Source of the DNA: Agromyces aureus
Lineage (GTDB): Bacteria; Actinomycetota; Actinomycetes; Actinomycetales; Microbacteriaceae
Direction: 5' to 3'
DNA: 64,000 nt
NCBI RefSeq assembly: GCF_001660485.1
Contig: NZ_CP013979.1
Location: 992,001 to 1,056,000 of the forward strand
Shown: piece by piece, positions 24,013-33,235 of the stretch
How positions within the stretch are numbered: the stretch's first letter is position 1
Layout: each line of letters begins with the position of its first letter
The notes under the pieces: generated by a model
What the model was told of the DNA's origin: nothing
The model's input: only the letters and a program-made list of their open reading frames with translations
Database searches by the model: none
Translations under genes and position numbers: made by a program

Positions 24013-25092
24013 ATGACCACCGATCGCGAACTCGCTCGTTGGCGACTGCGCTCGCAGCGGCTCGCCGCCCCCTCGGGCACGGCCGAGGAGGTCGTGCGCG
24101 CCCTCGGCGCCGTGCAGGCCGAGAACGCGTCGCAGTCGGCATGGGCGGTCGCGACCCGCACGGCCTCGCCCGCCCAGGACGACCTCGCCGGCGCGCTCGC
24201 CGACGGTCGGGTGCTGCGCCTGCACGTGCTGCGCTCGACCTGGCACTACGTGCACGCCGACGACGCGCTCTGGCTGCAGGAACTCACGAGGCCGCGGGTG
24301 ATGCCGATCTTCGAGCAGCAGTTGCAGCCGATCGCCGACCGGGTCGAGGCGCTCGGCGAGGTCGTCGAGGCGATGCTCGCCGAATCGCCCGATCGGACAC
24401 GGCCGGAGGTCGCCGCCGCGCTCGCCGAACGAGGTGAGGAGCTCACGGGCCAACAGCTGATGCTGCTGCTCGGGCGGCTCGAAGTGCTCGGCCTGGTGTG
24501 CAGCGGCGCGCCGCGCGACGGCGAGCACACGTACGCGCTCCTCGCCGATCGCGTGCCCGACGCGCGCCGTCTCGACCGCGATGAGGCGCTCGCCGAACTC
24601 GCCCTGCGGTACTTCGCGTCGCACGGCCCGGCGACCGCGCGCGACCTCGCGTACTGGGCCACGCTCACCGTGACCGACGTGCGCAGAGGCATCGCGGCCG
24701 TGGTCGACCGGCTCGACTCCTTCGAGCACGACGGACGCACCTACTGGCATGCGAGCGGCGACCTGCCGACATCCGCGGCGCCGACGGATGACGAGCCAGC
24801 CGGACACCTGCTGCAGGTCCTCGACGAGATGTATCGCGGATACCAGGACTCGCGCTGGGTGCTCGATGCCGCTGGCGTCGTGCCTCGAGCTCGCGAGGCC
24901 GCGATCGGCATGGCGCTCGTCGATGCCCAGCTGGTCGCCGCCATGAAGCGAACGCTCACCGCGTCCTCCGTGAAGTTCGCGGTGCAGCCGTACCGTGGGC
25001 TCGCCCCGCGCGAGGTCGACGCCGTCGAGCAGGCCGCCGTCCGGTACGGCGCGTTCCTCGGCCTCGAGGCGAGGGTCGAGTTCGACGGCTGA
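24013..25092 (+). CDS. winged-helix DNA-binding protein of the AlkZ/YcaQ (HTH_42) family
   Basis: A 359-residue protein. RWRLRSQRLAAPSGTAEEVV then RALGAVQAENASQSAWAVATR near the N-terminus is the typical family opening, with the conserved Gln of the QxQ-like segment. Further along are LRLHVLRSTWHYVHADDALW and GLEARVEFDG at the end. AlkZ-type proteins are DNA glycosylases that remove bulky or crosslinked alkylated bases, but many homologues like this one are untested. I chose ATG 24013: TACGCT lies 6 nt upstream (leaderless pattern), and the earlier ATG at 23977 would lie upstream of that promoter. Confidence 0.85.
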   Translation: MTTDRELARWRLRSQRLAAPSGTAEEVVRALGAVQAENASQSAWAVATRTASPAQDDLAGALADGRVLRLHVLRSTWHYVHADDALWLQELTRPRVMPIFEQQLQPIADRVEALGEVVEAMLAESPDRTRPEVAAALAERGEELTGQQLMLLLGRLEVLGLVCSGAPRDGEHTYALLADRVPDARRLDRDEALAELALRYFASHGPATARDLAYWATLTVTDVRRGIAAVVDRLDSFEHDGRTYWHASGDLPTSAAPTDDEPAGHLLQVLDEMYRGYQDSRWVLDAAGVVPRAREAAIGMALVDAQLVAAMKRTLTASSVKFAVQPYRGLAPREVDAVEQAAVRYGAFLGLEARVEFDG

Positions 25093-25190
25093 CCCCTGAC
25101 GGTCGGCGCCGGCGCACCCCGCGCAAGCGCCGACGCCTCCGCGTGCGCCGGACCGTGACATCCGCCGCGCACCGGCGCATCGGCTGACGC

Positions 25191-25595
25191 TCAGATCGCG
25201 CGTATGCGGTTGTTGCGCTTCTCGTGGGTGAGCTCGGCGAGCCCGAGCGCCTCGAGCAGCGGCGGCAGGTACATGCCGAACCTGCCGCGGTAGCCCTTGC
25301 GAAGCCCGTACCAGCCGCCCACCGGATTCGCCTCGTCGCGACCCCACGCCTCGACCGTGCCGGGTTGGGCCGCCTTCTGCTCGTCGGCGGCCCCGAGGTC
25401 GACCCAGTCGGCCTGCTCGCGCAGCCAGGCGGCGAGGTCGTCGACTGCGCTCAGACGGTACTTCAGGGTCGTCGATCCGACCTGGCACACGAGCGCCGGG
25501 GGATCGGCGGCCTCGTCGCGGTGCATCGTGTAGGCGCTCGTGCCCGGGGCCGTGGTGAGCTGCCACGGGTCGTCTGCGGATCCGGTTCCGGTCAT
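25191..25595 (-). CDS. conserved hypothetical protein (134 residues)
   Basis: A small soluble protein I know only as a conserved actinobacterial hypothetical. It starts MTGTGSADDPWQLTTAPGTS and contains PALVCQVGSTTLKYRLSAVD and GGWYGLRKGYRGRFGMYLPP. The length is normal for such proteins and no cofactor motif is evident. It lies 36 bp after the epimerase gene on the same strand and may be the end of the sigma-factor-controlled operon. Confidence 0.75.
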   Translation of the reverse strand: MTGTGSADDPWQLTTAPGTSAYTMHRDEAADPPALVCQVGSTTLKYRLSAVDDLAAWLREQADWVDLGAADEQKAAQPGTVEAWGRDEANPVGGWYGLRKGYRGRFGMYLPPLLEALGLAELTHEKRNNRIRAI

Positions 25596-25631
25596 GGCGT
25601 CCTCCGATCGCGTGGTGCTGCGAGGCAGATG

Positions 25632-26417
25632 CTACGCCGGATGCGCCGTCGCGGGCTCGTACGCCCGACCGCCGGCCGCGAACCAGTCCTCGTACCGCGT
25701 CGGGGCGATCGTCGCGTCGGGCCCCGGCAGCAGCTCGCGTTCGTCGAGGTCGGTGCCGAAGTACCGGGCGAGCGGATCGGCGACCACGTCGCGCAGGTCG
25801 TTCCGGAGGCGCAACTGGCGACGCACGAGCTCCTCGAGCTGGAACCGCTCGGGCCCCGCGAACTCCACCATCCGGCCGAGCGGGGGAGCGACGGCGGTCG
25901 CGGCCACCGCGGCGGCCACGTCGTCGGCCGCCATCGGCTGGAAGAGCGCACGCGAGAGCCTCACGAGGTTGCGGCTCGTGCCCGCATCCGCGATGTTCGC
26001 GATGAACTCGAAGAACTGGGTCGCGTGCACGATCGAGTACGGTCGGCCCGACTGCACGACGAGTCGCTCCTGCGCCGCCTTCGCGGCGAAGTAGCCGCCC
26101 TCGGTGCGGGCGAGCCGGTCGGTGCCGACGACCGAGAGCGTCACGTGATGGGCGACGCCCGCCGCTGCGCCGTACGTCAGCAGGTTGAGCGTCGATCCGT
26201 AGAAGAACTCGTTGGCGGCGGCCTCGTCGAGGTAATCCGAGTTCGAGACGTCGACGAGGGTCTCCGCACCGGCGAGCGCCTCCGCGAGCCCCTCGCCGGT
26301 GTACGAGTTCACGCCGGTCGCCCGCGATGCGACGACCACGTCGTGGCCGTCGGCCTCGAGCCGGGTGACGAGGCGCGTGCCGATGAGTCCGGTGCCGCCG
26401 ATGACCGCGATGCGCAT
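25632..26417 (-). CDS. NAD(P)-binding epimerase/NmrA-like protein (first of two)
   Basis: A 261-residue atypical short-chain dehydrogenase. The N-terminus MRIAVIGGTGLIGTRLV is the GxxGxxG Rossmann motif. VNSYTGEGLAEALAGAETLV, LSVVGTDRL and YFAAKAAQERLV follow, as in NAD(P)H-quinone/epimerase-like proteins. It starts 7 bp after the stop of its paralogue at 26424, so the pair is co-transcribed. Genes for such epimerase-like oxidoreductases are known partners of ECF41 sigma factors, and one is encoded just upstream. The substrate is unknown. Confidence 0.88.
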   Translation of the reverse strand: MRIAVIGGTGLIGTRLVTRLEADGHDVVVASRATGVNSYTGEGLAEALAGAETLVDVSNSDYLDEAAANEFFYGSTLNLLTYGAAAGVAHHVTLSVVGTDRLARTEGGYFAAKAAQERLVVQSGRPYSIVHATQFFEFIANIADAGTSRNLVRLSRALFQPMAADDVAAAVAATAVAPPLGRMVEFAGPERFQLEELVRRQLRLRNDLRDVVADPLARYFGTDLDERELLPGPDATIAPTRYEDWFAAGGRAYEPATAHPA

Positions 26418-26423
26418 GGCGGG

Positions 26424-27212
26424 CTACCTCACCGGGGCGGCGCCGGGCGCCGGCACGGCCTGGGCCGCCTGTGCCGCGAGCCACTCCGCGAACGAGGTCG
26501 ACGAGAGCTGCGCGTCGGCGCTCAGCGGCACGAGCTCGGTGCCCGTGAGCTTCGTGCCGAAGTACAGCGCCTCGGGGTCGCCGATCACGGTGCGCGGGTC
26601 GCCCTTGGCGGCGAGGCCCGCGCGCACGAACTCGTCCTGGCCGAGCCGTTCGGGCCCGCCGACCTCGACCGTGCCGTTGACGGGGTCGCCGGCCGCGATG
26701 CGGGCGACGGCGACCGAGACATCCGCCGCCGCGATCGGCTGCATGAGGCCCGTGCTGAGCCGTGCGGTGCCATCGACGGTGGCCTCGTCGGCGATGCGCC
26801 CGACGAACTCGTAGAACTGCGTCGCCCGCACGATCGAGTACGGCTGGCCGGACGCCTCGATGAGCCGCTCCTGAGCGACCTTCGCGCGCAGGTACCCGCT
26901 GTTCGGCAGGCGCTCGGCGCCGACGATCGACAGCGCCACGTGGTGGCCGACCCCGGCCTCGCGCTCGGCGGCGAGCAGCGTGTTCGTCGAGGTGGTGAAG
27001 AAGGCGAGCACGTCGTCGTCGGCGAACGACGGCGAGTTCGAGACGTCCACCACCACGTTCGCGCCGGTGAGCGCCTCGGCGACGCCCTCGCCCGTGATGG
27101 TGTTGACGCCCGAGTTGGGCGAGGCGGCGATCGCCTCGTGGCCGTGCGCGATGAGCTGCTCGACGACCTTCGAGCCGATGAGGCCCGTGCCTCCGATGAC
27201 GACGATCTTCAT
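26424..27212 (-). CDS. NAD(P)-binding epimerase/NmrA-like protein (second of two)
   Basis: A 262-residue paralogue of 25632-26417, with over half the residues alike by eye: MKIVVIGGTGLIGSKVV, GVNTITGEGVAEALTGANVV, LSIVGAERL and YLRAKVAQERLI. I start it at ATG 27212, preceded by GGAAGG; the longer open frame upstream is a shadow. A TGTCACA-N16-GGTC promoter lies 53 bp upstream (27265-27291). That makes it a direct target of the ECF41-type sigma factor. An internal duplication event likely produced the pair. Confidence 0.88.
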   Translation of the reverse strand: MKIVVIGGTGLIGSKVVEQLIAHGHEAIAASPNSGVNTITGEGVAEALTGANVVVDVSNSPSFADDDVLAFFTTSTNTLLAAEREAGVGHHVALSIVGAERLPNSGYLRAKVAQERLIEASGQPYSIVRATQFYEFVGRIADEATVDGTARLSTGLMQPIAAADVSVAVARIAAGDPVNGTVEVGGPERLGQDEFVRAGLAAKGDPRTVIGDPEALYFGTKLTGTELVPLSADAQLSSTSFAEWLAAQAAQAVPAPGAAPVR

Positions 27213-27264
27213 GACTGGTGCCTTCCGTCGTGGCGGCGGTGGATCCGCTGCCGTCACGAGCTTC

Positions 27265-27291
27265 GACCGGATGGCTCCCGCATCTGTGACA
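27265..27291 (-). promoter_or_regulatory. ECF41-type promoter of the epimerase pair
   Basis: Minus strand: TGTCACA (27285-27291), 16 nt, GGTC (27265-27268), 53 nt before the ATG at 27212. It matches four other sites nearby and the published ECF41 -35 element TGTCACA. The -10 here reads CGGTC, where CGTC is reported. Confidence 0.8.
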
Positions 27292-27334
27292 CCCCGATCG
27301 ATGCGACCGGCCGACGCGACCCGCCGGACCGGCC

Positions 27335-27706
27335 TCAGTCGAGCCCGGGATCTGGCCGGCGCCGGTTCCAGCTCGCGAGCTTGCGGGGAGCGGTCGAGAG
27401 CCACAGCAGGTCGATCGCCGGCTCGCCCTGTATGCCGAGCACGCCGACCACCTGGCCGTCGAACCGGCGCATCGCGAGGCCGGCGGCGCCGTTGACGTGC
27501 ACCGCCATCCACGCGGCATCCGGATGTCGCAGCACGAGGTCGTGCAATTCGCGGGCGACCAGGGCCCGCCCGCGCAGTTCGCCGCCCCGGTCGTCTCCCG
27601 AGTCGACGACGAGGCGCACGTCGCGGCTCAGCACGCTCGCCAGCGCGACGTCGTTCGAGTGTTCGAGCGCGTCGAGCAGGCGGGCGGCCGGATCACGAGG
27701 CGGCAC
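27335..27706 (-). CDS. SnoaL/NTF2-like small protein, duplicate of the sigma factor tail
   Basis: A 123-residue protein. LLDALEHSNDVALASVLSRD then VRLVVDSGDDRGG and HPDAAWMAVHVNGAAGLAMR are typical of the NTF2-like (SnoaL) fold. This is the same fold that forms the C-terminal domain of ECF41/SigJ factors. Its start at 27706 lies inside the last codons of the sigma gene (14-bp overlap), so the two are translated together. It could have arisen as a detached extra copy of that regulatory domain and may modulate the sigma factor. No anti-sigma gene is present nearby. Confidence 0.75.
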   Translation of the reverse strand: MPPRDPAARLLDALEHSNDVALASVLSRDVRLVVDSGDDRGGELRGRALVARELHDLVLRHPDAAWMAVHVNGAAGLAMRRFDGQVVGVLGIQGEPAIDLLWLSTAPRKLASWNRRRPDPGLD

Positions 27707-28574
27707 GGGAGGCCACGGCCCCGAGCTTGTGCGGGTTCATCATCCAGAGCACCTGGTCGATGCCCTCGGCGCCGACGACGAGGGTGATCACGGCGAACGT
27801 CGTGCCGTCCTTCGAGAGCAGTACCGACGGCTGGCCGTTCGTGTCGGCCTCGGCGATCGAGACACCCTCCCAGAAGTGCGTGTGGAACGCGCGCACGAAC
27901 TTCGCGACCCGCTCGCGACCCACGACCGGGAACTTCGACGCGCGCACGACGCCGCCTCCGTCGGTGTACGACACGACGTCTTCGGCGAAGAGCCGTTCGA
28001 GCTCGTCGAGGTCGCCGGTCTTCGCCGCGGTCAGGAACGCGGTGAGCAGCCGTCGCTGCTCGGTCGCCGTCGCCTCGCGCCGCCGCTCGCCGGCGAGGTG
28101 CTTTCGAGCGCGACTCACGAGTTGCCGCGCGGCGGGCTCCGAGACCTGCACGATCTCGCAGATCTGGTCGTAGGGGTAGGCGAACGCCTCGCGCAGCACG
28201 TAGGCGGCGCGCTCGGTCGGGGTGAGCCGCTCGAGCATCACGAGCACGGCGAAGCCCAGCGCCTCGGCCCGCTCGGCGCCGAGCGTCGGGTCGGCGCTCG
28301 TGTCGACGGGCTCGGGCAGCCACGGGCCGACGTACGTCTCGCGGCGGGCGCGCGCCGATTGCAGCGCGTTGATCGCGAGCCGGGTCGTCGTCGTCGCCAG
28401 GAACGCCGGCGCGTTCTCGACGGCGGAGCGGTCGGTGCCCTGCCACCGGATCCAGGCATCCTGCACGATGTCCTCGGCCTCGCCGGCGCTGCCGAGCATG
28501 CGGTACGCGATGCCGAAGAGCCGTCCGCGCACCGCCTCGAAGGCGGCGAGTGCATCGTCGAGGTTCGCATCCAT
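27693..28574 (-). CDS. sigJ: ECF41-type RNA polymerase sigma factor
   Basis: A 293-residue extracytoplasmic-function sigma factor with the fused C-terminal SnoaL domain that defines group ECF41. Region 2 includes GRLFGIAYRMLGSAGEAEDI and VQDAWIRWQG. Region 4 includes LTPTERAAYVLREAFAYPYD. The group motifs WLPEP (85-89), DGGG (205-208) and NPHKL (280-284, usually NPDKL) are all visible. In known ECF41 proteins the C-terminal domain acts in place of an anti-sigma factor. A matching promoter 53 nt upstream implies autoregulation. Downstream genes fit the carboxymuconolactone decarboxylase/oxidoreductase/epimerase class of ECF41 partners. Confidence 0.93.
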   Translation of the reverse strand: MDANLDDALAAFEAVRGRLFGIAYRMLGSAGEAEDIVQDAWIRWQGTDRSAVENAPAFLATTTTRLAINALQSARARRETYVGPWLPEPVDTSADPTLGAERAEALGFAVLVMLERLTPTERAAYVLREAFAYPYDQICEIVQVSEPAARQLVSRARKHLAGERRREATATEQRRLLTAFLTAAKTGDLDELERLFAEDVVSYTDGGGVVRASKFPVVGRERVAKFVRAFHTHFWEGVSIAEADTNGQPSVLLSKDGTTFAVITLVVGAEGIDQVLWMMNPHKLGAVASRAAS

Positions 28575-28626
28575 GTCGTGTCCCGTCGGTCGGCGGAGGG
28601 GACCGCAGCCGTCCCCTTGCAGCTAC

Positions 28627-28653
28627 GACCGCGCAGCAACCCGAGTTGTGACG
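28627..28653 (-). promoter_or_regulatory. ECF41-type promoter of the sigma factor gene
   Basis: Minus strand: CGTCACA (28647-28653), 16 nt, GGTC (28627-28630), 53 nt before the sigma gene start. It differs from the -35 consensus at the first base only. Confidence 0.75.
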
Positions 28654-28742
28654 ACCTCCGCGAAATCTCCGCGACCTTCGCATGCTATGCCGGTTGCCGC
28701 GGGCAGCGCGAGCGATTCGGGCAGGCGTTCGCATCGGGCGAG

Positions 28743-28793
28743 CGGATGCCGCGGGCGGGCGGGGTGCGATGCTGCGCCCGTCCGCGGCATCCG
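28743..28793 (-). terminator. hairpin built from the CGGATGCC word
   Basis: CGGATGCCGCGG (28743-28754) pairs perfectly with CCGCGGCATCCG (28782-28793). Six further bases inside pair with one G-T wobble. The stem lies 32 bp beyond the stop of the leftward hydrolase gene (28826), so it probably ends that transcript. The 250 bp between the hydrolase and sigma gene holds this hairpin, the sigma promoter and no gene. Confidence 0.6.
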
Positions 28794-28825
28794 TTCGACG
28801 CCGATGCGACTGCGGCCGAGGCTGC

Positions 28826-29563
28826 CTACGCGGCCGCCCGACGGTCGACGACGTGGGCGACGGCGGCGAGGATCGTGGCGGCGACGGCCTCGGGCTGCGA
28901 GACGCTCACGGCGTGCGAGGCGCCGGCGATCTCGTTGGTGCCGAGCGAGGCGGCGCGCTCGGCGCCCGCTCGCAGCACCGCGGCGGGGATGTTGCGGTCC
29001 TCCGCGCCGAACACGTGCCACGAGGGCCGGTCGGTCCAGCCGGGGGCCTCGGCCTGCACGGCGTCCTTCAACGCGGCCTCGGTCACGGGGCGCTGGGTCG
29101 CGCCCATGAGGCCGGCGACCTGCGCGGGGACGTCGGCGGCGAACTGGTCGCGGAACACCGAGCGGCGGATGACGAGCTCGACGCCGCCGGTCGAGATCGG
29201 GTGCGCGTCGAGCGCCTCGCCGAGCGTGGACCCGGGCGCGCTCGCCGAGAGCGAGAAGGCACTGTCGCCCTGCTCGGGCACGAACGCGGAGGCGTAGACG
29301 AGTGCGGCGACCTGCTCGTTGCCGGCGGATGCCTCGCTGATCACGAGTCCGCCGTACGAGTGGCCGACGAGCACGACGGGCCCGTCGATCGACGCGATGA
29401 CGTCGCGCACGTATGCGGCGTCGCCCGCGAGGCTTCGCAGCGGGTTCGCGACGGCGACCGAGGTGACCCCTTGGGCGTAGAGGCGTTCGATGACGCCGTT
29501 CCAGCTGGCGGATTCGGCGAACGCCCCGTGCACGAGCACGACGGTCGGCTTCTGATCTGACAT
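28826..29563 (-). CDS. alpha/beta hydrolase (EstC-like)
   Basis: A 245-residue hydrolase. VVLVHGAFAESASWNGVIER is the oxyanion-hole region and VVLVGHSYGGLVI contains the nucleophile elbow with Ser in GHSYG. GASHAVSVSQPEAVA near the C-terminus carries the catalytic His. The family includes esterases and salicylate-esterase-like proteins, often induced by stress. It has an ECF41-type promoter 55 bp upstream and is divergent from a second alpha/beta hydrolase with its own such promoter. No signal peptide, so it is cytoplasmic. Confidence 0.9.
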   Translation of the reverse strand: MSDQKPTVVLVHGAFAESASWNGVIERLYAQGVTSVAVANPLRSLAGDAAYVRDVIASIDGPVVLVGHSYGGLVISEASAGNEQVAALVYASAFVPEQGDSAFSLSASAPGSTLGEALDAHPISTGGVELVIRRSVFRDQFAADVPAQVAGLMGATQRPVTEAALKDAVQAEAPGWTDRPSWHVFGAEDRNIPAAVLRAGAERAASLGTNEIAGASHAVSVSQPEAVAATILAAVAHVVDRRAAA

Positions 29564-29617
29564 GGCGGTTTCCCTTCTCGAATCGTCGACCGCGGAATGC
29601 GGGGCGATGTCAGCTCA

Positions 29618-29644
29618 GACCGGGTCGGGGTTGCCGCTGTGACA
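29618..29644 (-). promoter_or_regulatory. ECF41-type promoter of the leftward hydrolase
   Basis: Minus strand: TGTCACA (29638-29644), 16 nt, GGTC (29618-29621), 55 nt before the start at 29563. Identical in both boxes to the epimerase promoter. Confidence 0.8.
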
Positions 29645-29675
29645 CTCGACGCAGGCAGCGCCTTCGTCGACCGGT

Positions 29676-29702
29676 CGTCACATCCGCGGGTCGGGCTCGG
29701 TC
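29676..29702 (+). promoter_or_regulatory. ECF41-type promoter of the rightward hydrolase
   Basis: CGTCACA (29676-29682), 16 nt, GGTC (29699-29702), 49 nt before the start at 29751. It is back to back with the promoter at 29618-29644, so one sigma factor would fire both genes from a 190-bp region. Confidence 0.75.
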
Positions 29703-29750
29703 GAGGCTCGTGACGGGCTCGCAACGCGCCCGGTTCGAGAGGAGCACCCC

Positions 29751-30671
29751 ATGAACGCGATTCCGCGGCTGCAGCCGCTCCGGCACGTCGAGACGAGCCG
29801 CCTCGACGTCGCCTACTTCGAGGCCGGTCCGGCCGACGGGGAGCCCATCGTGCTGCTGCACGGGTTCCCGTACGACATCCACAGCTACGTCGAGGTCGCA
29901 CCGATGCTGGCCGCGGAGGGCTTCCGGGTGATCGTGCCCTCCCTGCGCGGCCATGGGGAGACGCGATTCCTGCGTTCATCAGAGCCGCGCACCGGGCAGC
30001 AGACCGCCCTCGGGCAGGACGTGATCGAGCTCATGGACGCGCTCGCGATTCCGCGGGCGATCCTCGCGGGCTACGACTGGGGCGGCCGCGCGGCCTGCGT
30101 GGTCGCCGCGCTGCAGCCCGAGCGGGTCACGGCGCTGGTGGCCGTCAACGGGTACCTCATCCAGGACATCGCCGCGTCGATGCATCCGCTCGCACCGGAG
30201 CTCGAGGCCGGGTTCTGGTACTTCTTCTACTTCCTCACCGAGCGGGGCCGGCTCGGGCTGACCCGGGATCCGCGCGGCATCGCCGAGGTGATCTGGCGCC
30301 GCAACTCGCCCGACTGGGACTTCGGCGACGCCGAGTTCGATCGAGCGGCATCGGCGTTCGACAACCCCGATTTCGTCGAGGTCGTGATCCACTCGTACCG
30401 GCATCGGCTCGCCCACGTCGACGGGGCGCCCGAGTACTCGCGACTCGAGGCGCAACTGGCGCACCTGCCGTCGATCGGGGTGCCGACGGTCACGCTCGAC
30501 GGACTCGCCGACGGCAACTTCCCCGCGCGCGACGCGACTGCGGCCGGTGTCCGATTCGTCGGCCCCCACGAGCATCGGCTCGTTCCTCACGCGGGGCACA
30601 ACCTCCCGCAGGAGGCGCCGCGCGCGTTCGCCGACGCGGTGCGCCGGGCTGCGGACCTCGCGGGCGGCTGA
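29751..30671 (+). CDS. alpha/beta hydrolase, epoxide hydrolase/haloalkane dehalogenase type
   Basis: A 306-residue protein. IVLLHGFPYDIHSYVEVAPM is the oxyanion region. The nucleophile elbow reads ILAGYDWGGRAACV with Asp as nucleophile, as in epoxide hydrolases and dehalogenases rather than esterases. HAGHNLPQEAPRAFADAV carries the catalytic His. A cap domain rich in aromatic residues (EAGFWYFFYFLTERGRLG) follows strand 6, as expected. It is preceded by GAGAGGAG. It could detoxify an epoxide or organohalide; the actual substrate is not readable. Confidence 0.9.
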   Translation: MNAIPRLQPLRHVETSRLDVAYFEAGPADGEPIVLLHGFPYDIHSYVEVAPMLAAEGFRVIVPSLRGHGETRFLRSSEPRTGQQTALGQDVIELMDALAIPRAILAGYDWGGRAACVVAALQPERVTALVAVNGYLIQDIAASMHPLAPELEAGFWYFFYFLTERGRLGLTRDPRGIAEVIWRRNSPDWDFGDAEFDRAASAFDNPDFVEVVIHSYRHRLAHVDGAPEYSRLEAQLAHLPSIGVPTVTLDGLADGNFPARDATAAGVRFVGPHEHRLVPHAGHNLPQEAPRAFADAVRRAADLAGG

Positions 30672-30689
30672 GGACTGCCGCAGCAGCGC

Positions 30690-30755
30690 GAAATTCAGGA
30701 GATCCGGCCATCGAGGTGCCCTGAGAGCGGTGGAACGGCGAATCTCCTGAATTTC
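30690..30755. repeat. 14-bp inverted repeat, AT-rich
   Basis: GAAATTCAGGAGAT (30690-30703) and ATCTCCTGAATTTC (30742-30755) are exact inverted copies around a 38-nt GC-rich loop. It lies 18 bp after the hydrolase stop. The AT-rich arms are unlike the surrounding DNA. It could be a terminator, or a REP-like dispersed element. It and the promoter at 30780 are all that the 278-bp space before 30950 holds. Confidence 0.65.
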
Positions 30756-30779
30756 TGACACCGCGCCGGCGAACGCGGA

Positions 30780-30806
30780 TGTCACAGCCGCGGCATCCGC
30801 TCGGTC
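30780..30806 (+). promoter_or_regulatory. ECF41-type promoter upstream of the acetyltransferase
   Basis: TGTCACA (30780-30786), 16 nt, GGTC (30803-30806). The next gene starts at 30950, giving a longer leader of about 140 nt than at the other four sites. Both boxes match exactly. Confidence 0.7.
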
Positions 30807-30949
30807 ATGACTGTTGACAGGTTCGGTCGAGTCGTGAGAGAAGAGCGGGAGTACCGGGTTTCAGGCGGCCCCTCCCCGGGTTGCGCCAAGCAGACCACGG
30901 CTGGTCCCACCCGCCACCGAACCTGGCACGCGATCGAAGGAGATGGGCA

Positions 30950-31387
30950 ATGAGCGCAGGAGACGGATTCACGCCGGTCGAGTACCCCGACGCGGCCGGA
31001 TATCCCGACGGTACGGGCTTCCTCGACGAGGGCACCGCAGCGCTCGTCGACGAGGTGACCGCCGCCGAGGTGCGCGAGGTCGACCGCCCATCGGCCGACT
31101 CCGACGTCGAGATCGCCGTGCACCGCCTGGCCGACGAGCAGAAGTACTCGGCCACGATCGAGGGCGCCGAGGTGGCGAGCATCCGCTACGTCGAGACCGA
31201 CGACGAGGTCGACGTGCTCGCGACGAGTGTCGTGCCCGAGTTCCGCGGCCGGGGCATCGCGGCCGACCTGATCGCCGACGCGCTCGACGACATCCGCACC
31301 CGTGACCAGCGCCTCGTGGTGCACTGCGCGGTCGTCGCCGCGTTCCTCGAGGGCAACCCGCAGTACGCGGACCTGCTCGGCGGGTGA
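30950..31387 (+). CDS. GNAT family small acetyltransferase
   Basis: A 145-residue protein with a 45-residue acidic N-terminus (MSAGDGFTPVEYPDAAGYPD) followed by the compact GCN5-related domain. DEVDVLATSVVPEFRGRGIA is the acetyl-CoA binding strand and pyrophosphate loop. HCAVVAAFLEGNPQYADLL is the typical C-terminal His/Tyr segment of the short YjdJ-like group. ATG 30950 has AAGGAG just upstream. The substrate is unknown, and the protein is about 50 residues longer than the minimal family members because of the N-terminal tail. Confidence 0.85.
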   Translation: MSAGDGFTPVEYPDAAGYPDGTGFLDEGTAALVDEVTAAEVREVDRPSADSDVEIAVHRLADEQKYSATIEGAEVASIRYVETDDEVDVLATSVVPEFRGRGIAADLIADALDDIRTRDQRLVVHCAVVAAFLEGNPQYADLLGG

Positions 31388-31456
31388 CATTCGTCATGCC
31401 GAGGTCGTGACATCCGACCCTGCCGGACCGTTCGTGCGGTTCCTAACGTCGAGGAC

Positions 31457-31981
31457 ATGAACGACGAGACGATCCAGAACGGTGCTCCGACGACCGGAGT
31501 GACGGCGACGACGGGGGCTTCGGCAACGAAGGGAATGACGCCGGCCGGCCCTCCTGAACGCTCCGGGGTATCAGGCCGCGCACGGCGTCGGCTCGAGCGG
31601 GCCGCCGTCCTCCTCGTTGCGGCCGTGCTGCCGCTGCTTATCTGGGCGGTCGCGGTGCCGATCGCCGGTCTCGACCTGACCGTGGGCACCGGCCCGACGG
31701 CGCAGGTCGTCTCACCGTCATCGATCGTGGTCGCCGTGCTGGTCGCCGGGTGCTGCGCGTGGGGCGTGCTGGCGCTGCTCGAGCGGTTCTCGCGCCGCAG
31801 CGGCCGCACGTTCGCGATCATCGGGTGGACGGTGCTCGCGGTCTCGCTGCTCGGCCCCCTGCTGTCGGCCGTGAGCGGGGTCGTGCTCGTGGTGCTCCTC
31901 GCGATGCACCTCGCGACCGGCGCGGCGCTGGTGCTCGGCCTGCCGCGAGCGGCCCGACGCCTCGATCCGGCGGTGTCGTAG
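31457..31981 (+). CDS. DUF6069-like four-helix membrane protein
   Basis: A 174-residue protein. The first 45 residues are polar. Four transmembrane helices follow: about 48-70, 88-108, 118-135 and 137-158. The layout resembles actinobacterial DUF6069 proteins, which have no known function. TAACGT lies 7 nt before the ATG, compatible with a leaderless transcript. It stands 54 bp before the histidine kinase gene and on the same strand, so it may be co-transcribed with the two-component system. Confidence 0.75.
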   Translation: MNDETIQNGAPTTGVTATTGASATKGMTPAGPPERSGVSGRARRRLERAAVLLVAAVLPLLIWAVAVPIAGLDLTVGTGPTAQVVSPSSIVVAVLVAGCCAWGVLALLERFSRRSGRTFAIIGWTVLAVSLLGPLLSAVSGVVLVVLLAMHLATGAALVLGLPRAARRLDPAVS

Positions 31982-32035
31982 ATTGGCGACGGGACCGAAC
32001 CCGACCGCAGCGACGACCTCGGGACGAGTGAGACG

Positions 32036-33235
32036 ATGACGACGATCGACGACCTTCAGCACACCGCGCGGCATCCGGCGACGACCTGGCTCGCCTACCG
32101 GCCGGGTCCGTGGCTCGCGCTCGTCGCCGCACCCGTGCTGCTGATCGCGCCGCTCGTGGCGGCGATCATGGCCGGCGACTGGGCGAGGATCGCGTACGTG
32201 CTCCTGCTCGGCGGCGTCTTCGGCGCCGCGGTGTCGCTGCCGTTCGGGTCGCGTCGCCGCCCGACGGCCGTGACCGAGGCCGTGTTCGTCGCGCTGCTGC
32301 TGCTCTGCAGCGGATACCTCGTGCTCTGGCGCACCGAGCAGGCATTGCTGTTCCCGCTGCTCGCGGTCGCCGCGTCGCTCGCGATCCGGCGCCGCTGGGC
32401 CATGCCCATGGTCGGCGCGATCGCCGTGAGCGGTGCCCTGGCCGTCGGCATGGCGACGTGGTCGCTCGAGGCCGCGGTGCTCGTGGGATTCGCCGCGTTC
32501 GCCGGCGGCGCGGGCAACTTCCTCGTGCAGTACTACGTCGCCCTCGCCCGCGAACTCGATCGCACGAGGGAGCGGCTCGCCGTCGCCGCCGTCGCCGAGG
32601 AGCGGCTGCGGTTCTCGCGCGACCTGCACGACCTGCTCGGGCATTCGCTGTCGGTCATCGCCGTGAAGTCCGAGGCGGCCCGGCGCCTCATTCCGCGGGA
32701 TCCGGATGCCGCGTCCACCCATGTCGGCGAGGTCGAGGCGATCGCACGCGAGGCGCTCGGCGAGGTGCGCTCGGTCGTCGCAGGCTCCCGCACGGTGAGC
32801 CTCGGCGTGGAGCTCGCGAACGCGCGTGCTGCGCTCGAGGACGCCGGCGTCGCGACCTCCGTCACGGCACCGGCCGTCGCGCTGCCGCTCAGCGTCGACG
32901 CGGTGCTCGGCTGGGTCGTGCGCGAGGGCGCGACGAACGTGCTGCGGCACTCGGCGGCACGCCTCTGCTCGATCGAGGTCGTCGTGAGCGCGGAGCGGGT
33001 GCGCGTCATGGTCGCCGACGACGGCGCTGGAACCCCGCCGGCCGCATCTGCGGGCGCGGGCGGGTCCGCTCCGGGGTCGAGCCGTGGCGGTAGCGGACTC
33101 GACGGTCTCCGCGAACGCGTCGAGGCGGTCGGCGGCGCGCTGACGGTGGAGGATCGGGCGTCGGGCGGCTCGGGATTCCGCCTCACCGCCGAGATCCCGC
33201 TCGGCGCCGACCGCACGCGCGAGGCAGGCCGATGA
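32036..33235 (+). CDS. sensor histidine kinase (NarL/DesK class)
   Basis: A 399-residue membrane kinase. Five or six hydrophobic helices span residues about 25-165 with very short loops, so sensing is probably within the membrane, as in DesK. The dimerisation/phosphoacceptor helix reads RLRFSRDLHDLLGHSLSVIA with His198. The C-terminal HATPase domain has EGATNVLRHSAA (N box), VADDGAG and GSGLDGLRERV. Its stop overlaps the response-regulator start by 4 bp. Confidence 0.92.
   Translation: MTTIDDLQHTARHPATTWLAYRPGPWLALVAAPVLLIAPLVAAIMAGDWARIAYVLLLGGVFGAAVSLPFGSRRRPTAVTEAVFVALLLLCSGYLVLWRTEQALLFPLLAVAASLAIRRRWAMPMVGAIAVSGALAVGMATWSLEAAVLVGFAAFAGGAGNFLVQYYVALARELDRTRERLAVAAVAEERLRFSRDLHDLLGHSLSVIAVKSEAARRLIPRDPDAASTHVGEVEAIAREALGEVRSVVAGSRTVSLGVELANARAALEDAGVATSVTAPAVALPLSVDAVLGWVVREGATNVLRHSAARLCSIEVVVSAERVRVMVADDGAGTPPAASAGAGGSAPGSSRGGSGLDGLRERVEAVGGALTVEDRASGGSGFRLTAEIPLGADRTREAGR

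Follow-up and report, generated by a model that had tools for sequence, protein, structure and literature searches.

How many promoters does an ECF41 sigma factor read, and what do they drive? ECF41 is a large, mostly actinobacterial group of extracytoplasmic function (ECF) sigma factors (252/373 proteins), and the founding study found a single target transcript (PMC3426412). We address this question in Agromyces aureus, in a window of 64,000 nt (contig NZ_CP013979.1, positions 992,001 to 1,056,000) where five copies of one promoter-like motif lie around an ECF41-type sigma gene. Comparative sequence analysis, our whole evidence base, makes it highly probable that this ECF41 subclade reads YGTCACA-N16-GGTC (in practice CGGTC) and drives a small, mostly local regulon. 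Its members would be the sigma gene, a free-standing SnoaL protein, an epimerase pair, two alpha/beta hydrolases, and a pseudoknotted RNA of about 105 nt together with an acetyltransferase. The sites, their spacing and conservation, the base-pair covariation of the RNA, and its association with both promoter and sigma factor are seen in the sequences themselves.

The motif occurs five times in the window, exactly where the first-pass annotation had placed it, with the full -10 reading CGGTC at 5/5 sites and a spacing so uniform that a single fixed-spacing pattern matches all of them. Across 100 dinucleotide shuffles of the window, the mean is 0.12 matches and the largest count 1. The whole-genome scan that had been suggested as a check returned the same five sites and no others in 4,373,124 bases, all inside 3.6 kb around the sigma gene; many random matches at this spacing were not seen, and the reversed control pattern matches once in the genome. 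Allowing up to two mismatches to YGTCACA-N15-CGGTC adds six sites with two mismatches to the five exact ones of the window, and no site with a single mismatch; shuffles average 24.4 matches at this laxness, and the five exact sites therefore stand clear of background. The looser GTCACA-N17-GTC finds 16 genome matches, five of them these sites, and its reversed control finds four. From GGTC to the start codon there are 52 bases for both epimerase 1 (start 27212) and the sigma gene (28574), 54 for hydrolase A (29563) and 48 for hydrolase B (29751), which agrees within one base with the 49-55 nt given earlier for four of the sites. The fifth lies 143 bases from the acetyltransferase, whose start is taken as 30950.

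The sigma factor belongs to ECF41, as had been proposed. It matches PF04542, PF08281 and PF12680, corresponding to sigma2 and sigma4 only plus a SnoaL/NTF2-like C-terminal extension of about 100 aa, reaches 346 bits against SigX4/TIGR02957 (cut-off 323.25), and aligns to the SigJ structure 5xe7 at E 2e-44. The WLPEP motif of the sigma2-sigma4 linker, described as an ECF41 trait (PMC3426412), is present, and the distal NPDKL motif, described as another, reads NPHKL with one substitution. Among the neighbour types typical of the group (carboxymuconolactone decarboxylase, oxidoreductase or epimerase), two epimerase-type genes are found here.

The published ECF41 promoter is TGTCACA-n16-CGTC, reported for single targets (Wecke et al. 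2012, PMC3426412). The -35 at our locus equals this element, its first base being either T or C, and the spacer fits 16 +/- 1. The -10 is one base away from the group consensus, as first noted from the window alone: GGTC stands at 5/5 sites, and the difference is conserved in other genomes. We compared 47 loci, comprising 46 homologous loci and the window (29 plus the window from Agromyces, 17 from other genera). Here the first -10 base of 144 YGTCACA-N16-xGTC sites is G in 118, T in 21, C in 4 and A in 1, and 116 sites occur at N15-CGGTC against 0-3 at each of 15 other spacings tried. One of the two promoters mapped in the founding study has TGTT as its -10 (PMC3426412), so the ECF41 -10 is not uniform, and CGTC is typical rather than defining.

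Does the motif follow the sigma factor through evolution? An ortholog (E<=1e-75, 75-100% identity) is encoded in 30/60 Agromyces genomes and, at E<=1e-85, in 30/299 genomes of the family, a count that takes in Agromyces. The 30 sigma-positive Agromyces genomes hold 128 YGTCACA-N15-CGGTC sites, compared with 11 in the 30 sigma-negative ones. In the Agromyces loci the exact promoter precedes the regulon genes at frequencies from 26/27 for epimerase 1 down to 7/13 for hydrolase B (Table 1), compared with 0/14 neighbouring control genes and 0/30 free SnoaL genes; counts for epimerase 2 are unusable because its query also matches epimerase 1. Promoters also move along with genes displaced by kilobases (L080, L086, L087 and L105). 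The multi-gene local regulon of the annotation, hydrolases and acetyltransferase included, is thus conserved in other genomes. A different ECF factor of the genome could in principle read the five sites, for example the ECF41-like paralogue at G000:C1:987908-988744 (39% identical), as the genome has such paralogues and the -35 is typical of the whole ECF41 group. However, site number tracks the adjacent sigma ortholog, the sites surround the adjacent gene with its own promoter included, and near the paralogue (L116) there is no YGTCACA-N15-17-[CG]GTC site, only a looser TGTC match 0.8 kb off. We consider this alternative improbable.

The fifth site had been assigned to the acetyltransferase. 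The promoter does stand upstream of this gene, but a conserved structured RNA lies between them and would therefore be driven first. This stretch is more conserved than the acetyltransferase, keeping near-identical blocks where the protein falls to 55% identity. Its proposed fold has four helices, P3 forming a pseudoknot with P2 (Table 1). In 35 copies, 95.8% of cells are paired, with two-sided changes at 7 pairs; in 57 distinct copies the paired fraction is again 95.8%, and compensatory changes occur at 17/28 pairs, in P1, P2, P3a and P4. The latter set contains 123 cells with two-sided changes, whereas shuffles give 39.2 and slid controls never more than 22. Only P1, P2 and P4, and not P3, guided the fitting of this second alignment, which means that the two-sided changes at three P3a pairs owe nothing to it.

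BLAST finds the RNA in 26/60 Agromyces genomes. Scanning 84,980 species, each represented by one genome, with a sequence pattern gave 21 records, from Agromyces, Leifsonia, Cryobacterium, Homoserinibacter and Cellulosimicrobium. Covariance models detect it in 18/398 family genomes (8/85 genera), in 15/394 class genomes, 10 of them from a single genus recognised as Jiangella by an identical protein, and, with model R2, in 2/396 phylum genomes, both Agromyces. It is usually single copy, with two copies in two Jiangella genomes. Rfam 15 (4227 families) has no match at E<=1 in positions 25000-32500 and none at E<=10 on 150 nt; in eight loci with divergent copies, the sole match is mir-764, which lies beside the RNA on the opposite strand and stays below its cut-off (25 bits, where 82 are required).

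The RNA keeps company with both the promoter and the sigma factor. We scored 12 promoter positions within 100 nt upstream of 51 copies (a single copy from each genome, except for G578 and G634 with two each), counting 11-12 matches as a hit and sigma as present at E<=1e-75 in the genus and E<=1e-85 elsewhere. This set leaves out three duplicates (L153, L165 and L185) and six named-record copies whose genomes were not searched for sigma (L150, L151, L160, L163, L166 and L167, scoring 9, 10, 12, 10, 12 and 12). Hits stand upstream of 27/39 copies with sigma in the genome and 1/12 without (Fisher p 4e-4); 3/51 downstream windows score as high, and the best shuffle reaches 11. From the end of the -10 to the start of the RNA model there are 9-13 nt in 22/27 promoter-bearing copies (12-16 with the three model bases that this count leaves out); the remaining gaps, in G072, G345, G607, G634 and G578, are 14 to 45 nt. 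Sigma and RNA lie within 10 kb of each other in 17 of the 37 genomes that have both, where 0.17 would be expected, and within Agromyces the RNA is matched in 20/30 sigma-positive compared with 6/30 sigma-negative genomes (p 6e-4).

These data also bear on whether the segment is an RNA at all. Very high primary conservation and a weak single-sequence folding energy would suit a DNA element or a coding remnant, but either form sits poorly with the compensatory changes in P1, P2, P3a and P4, with P4 loop lengths that differ among copies by non-multiples of three, with the usual single copy per genome and with the near-fixed distance to the promoter. This explanation seems very improbable to us.

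Is the RNA a leader of the gene behind it, or an RNA in its own right? The acetyltransferase follows directly in 14/60 copies. In the 43 other distinct copies (duplicate rows L177, L179 and L185 removed) the next gene is convergent in 22, co-directional in 20 and ambiguous in one (L160). These genes were called from codon-position GC alone, which gives rough predictions where DNA is GC-rich. Ten of the 18 co-directional genes scanned are on the theme of the regulon: alpha/beta hydrolases (L126, L130, L136, L183 and L190), NmrA/epimerase proteins (L165 and L167), a glyoxalase-like protein (L196), a tautomerase (L189) and the ECF41 sigma factor itself (L145). Four others encode DNA alkylation repair, 2-hydroxyacid dehydrogenase, pyridine nucleotide oxidoreductase and MerB proteins, and four have no match. 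Of the convergent genes, 14/22 overlap the RNA or have their end no more than about 55 nt from it. The 19 scanned are mixed and include MFS, two TetR, two CBS, methyltransferase and RelA/SpoT proteins, but also an SDR, a zinc dehydrogenase and another GNAT protein. A cis-acting, riboswitch-like leader without independent existence, serving foremost the acetyltransferase, would explain the acetyltransferase and same-theme genes behind the RNA, and the compact pseudoknot with its conserved unpaired bases resembles a ligand pocket. A riboswitch would be expected to stand consistently in the 5' leader of a gene and to change expression on ligand binding, and the RNA has a leader position in part of its copies. 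Against a pure leader speak the convergent next genes in 22/43 copies, mixed in function among those scanned, and G059, which has an acetyltransferase homologue but no RNA match; we regard it as possible but unlikely. Because many copies have a convergent neighbour, the RNA probably exists in its own right and is sometimes a leader; on present sequences we favour an independent RNA that at times leads a gene of the same response over a pure leader.

Several observations weigh against the regulon and RNA as drawn here. In the 17 loci of other genera, promoter counts are lower: 2/3 for sigma (matches of at least 74% identity only), 7/14 for epimerase 1, 0/8 for hydrolase A (3 relaxed), 1/5 for hydrolase B and 1/5 for the acetyltransferase. 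By BLAST the RNA has no match in 10/30 sigma-positive Agromyces genomes but has one in 6/30 sigma-negative ones, and 12/39 copies in sigma-positive genomes have no promoter scoring >=11. Some copies seem to bear a sigma70-like promoter, and G044 combines a perfect promoter with a sigma factor only 42% identical. As the genomes are related and events not independent, the p values are indicative. There is no pairing excess between the RNA and the start regions of regulon genes. For the fold, P3 has few changes (five two-sided cells in P3a in total against nine unpaired ones, P3b being invariant), the single window RNA folds no better than shuffles (z +0.8), and the invariance of some bases is partly selection, since copies in alignment A1 were chosen by sequence patterns.

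Table 1. Genes, predicted promoters and RNA elements of the locus (window coordinates; promoter counts are Agromyces loci).
Feature	Position	Strand	Remark
Epimerase 2	25632..26417	-	probable operon with epimerase 1
Epimerase 1	26430..27212	-	NAD(P)-binding/NmrA-like
ECF41-type promoter of epimerase 1	27265..27291	-	exact motif; exact in 26/27
Free-standing SnoaL-like protein, 123 aa	27335..27706	-	overlaps sigma gene end by 14 nt
ECF41/SigJ-type sigma factor, 293 aa	27693..28574	-	sigma2, sigma4, YVGPWLPEP linker, C-terminal SnoaL/NTF2-like domain
ECF41-type promoter of sigma gene	28627..28653	-	predicted autoregulation; exact in 23/30
Alpha/beta hydrolase A	28826..29563	-	
ECF41-type promoter of hydrolase A	29618..29644	-	14/19 exact, 19/19 relaxed
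ECF41-type promoter of hydrolase B	29676..29702	+	7/13 exact
Alpha/beta hydrolase B	29751..30671	+	
ECF41-type promoter of RNA and acetyltransferase	30780..30806	+	7/10 exact before acetyltransferase
Conserved structured RNA, ~105 nt	30816-30930	+	between fifth promoter and acetyltransferase
P1	30821-30827/30916-30922	+	outer helix
P2	30830-30836/30896-30902	+	
P3a; P3b	30845-30849/30910-30914; 30856-30858/30906-30908	+	crosses P2 (pseudoknot)
P4	30864-30867/30884-30887	+	
GNAT acetyltransferase (PF14542)	30950..31387	+	3' of structured RNA

The free-standing SnoaL protein resembles the sigma factor's own C-terminal domain (TIGR02957 positions 170-279, E 1e-4) and is called hypothetical protein in most records naming it. 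Its gene lies beside sigma in 30/30 Agromyces loci, window included, and is less conserved than sigma. Because the two genes overlap, the proteins are probably co-produced. ECF41 factors are described as lacking an anti-sigma factor.

For sigma dependence in the cell, the ligand, and the roles of the RNA and the free SnoaL protein, we infer the following scheme. A small molecule would enter the SnoaL/NTF2 pocket of the C-terminal domain and release the sigma factor, which would then act on its own promoter, in positive feedback, and on the other regulon promoters. The regulon enzymes may modify or remove the inducing compound, while the free SnoaL protein could damp the loop, either by taking up this ligand as well or by competing for sigma. 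The RNA is predicted to begin within a few bases of the transcription start expected for the ECF41 promoter, and may act mainly as an independent structured RNA, also serving as a leader where a gene closely follows. More speculatively, it might represent a new ligand- or protein-binding pseudoknotted class and the RNA arm of the ECF41 response. In that case it would be made from a promoter of the sigma factor's own type, act in trans or on read-through genes, and sense the small molecule to which the SnoaL domains respond. One signal would then have a protein sensor and an RNA sensor, and the detached SnoaL protein would add a third.

Other features of these loci are recorded here. In seven loci (L097, L100, L103, L104, L107, L108 and L109) the ortholog is joined, at a distance of up to about 5 kb, by another ECF41 paralogue with about 53-62% identity. 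Most of these loci have CGGTC-type sites nearby, and the arrangement may be a duplicated or two-sigma circuit. Three further sigma paralogues (L095:7046-6477, L085:13472-12900 and G049:C1:2339595-2340164) align over residues ~3-198 only, apparently without the SnoaL extension, and sit near CGGTC sites or the RNA. By eye, the RNA copies L137, L140 and L143 (G028, G011 and G024) have a sigma70-like TAKCGT box in place of an ECF41 promoter; the sigma ortholog is absent in G011 and G024 and present in G028, a possible promoter replacement. In the window, a DUF6855 protein (25191-25595, minus strand) lies directly 3' of epimerase 2 on the same strand with a 36-nt gap and may belong to its operon. 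An inverted repeat, GAAATTCAGGAGAT ... ATCTCCTGAATTTC (30690-30755), between hydrolase B and the fifth promoter is possibly the terminator of the hydrolase gene.

The enzymes of this compact regulon, which is unique in the genome, form a recognisable, detoxification-type set and so narrow the chemistry in which to seek the ECF41 signal. The Rfam-unmatched RNA, with the same promoter type across several families, could serve as a readout of ECF41 activity, making that signal directly testable, and possibly as a second ligand sensor.

Among known systems, the Ms1/6S-type RNAs are stand-alone structured RNAs of actinobacteria, as the RNA here probably is, but they are far longer, and the RNA of the window matches no Rfam family. 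RpoE2 of S. meliloti, reported to activate seven small RNAs, resembles our case in that an ECF factor controls, or here is predicted to control, noncoding RNA; RpoE2 is of another ECF group, whereas here there is one RNA with a conserved pseudoknot fold and the same promoter type in several families. In the ECF56 pair SigG1-RsfG of Streptomyces tsukubaensis, RsfG reportedly lacks any conserved Pfam domain, whereas the neighbour here resembles the regulatory domain of its sigma factor, which is ECF41. Within ECF41, the annotation had called the regulon wider than the typical epimerase-only targets. This holds against B. licheniformis, R. sphaeroides and S. meliloti RpoE9, for which single targets are reported (for RpoE9, PMC6180224), but breadth is not unprecedented, as the title of Dubey 2020 ascribes control of motility and lateral flagella to an ECF41 factor of Azospirillum. 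With Ecf41 of B. licheniformis and R. sphaeroides, SigJ of M. tuberculosis and RpoE9, the A. aureus factor shares the sigma2-sigma4 architecture, the WLPEP linker, the SnoaL/NTF2 C-terminal domain, an epimerase-type neighbour, the -35 TGTCACA and the spacer of 16. Unlike them, it is associated with a GGTC (CGGTC) -10 rather than CGTC or TGTT, with five predicted promoters rather than one reported target, with a structured RNA among those predicted targets, and with a free SnoaL protein adjoining its gene.

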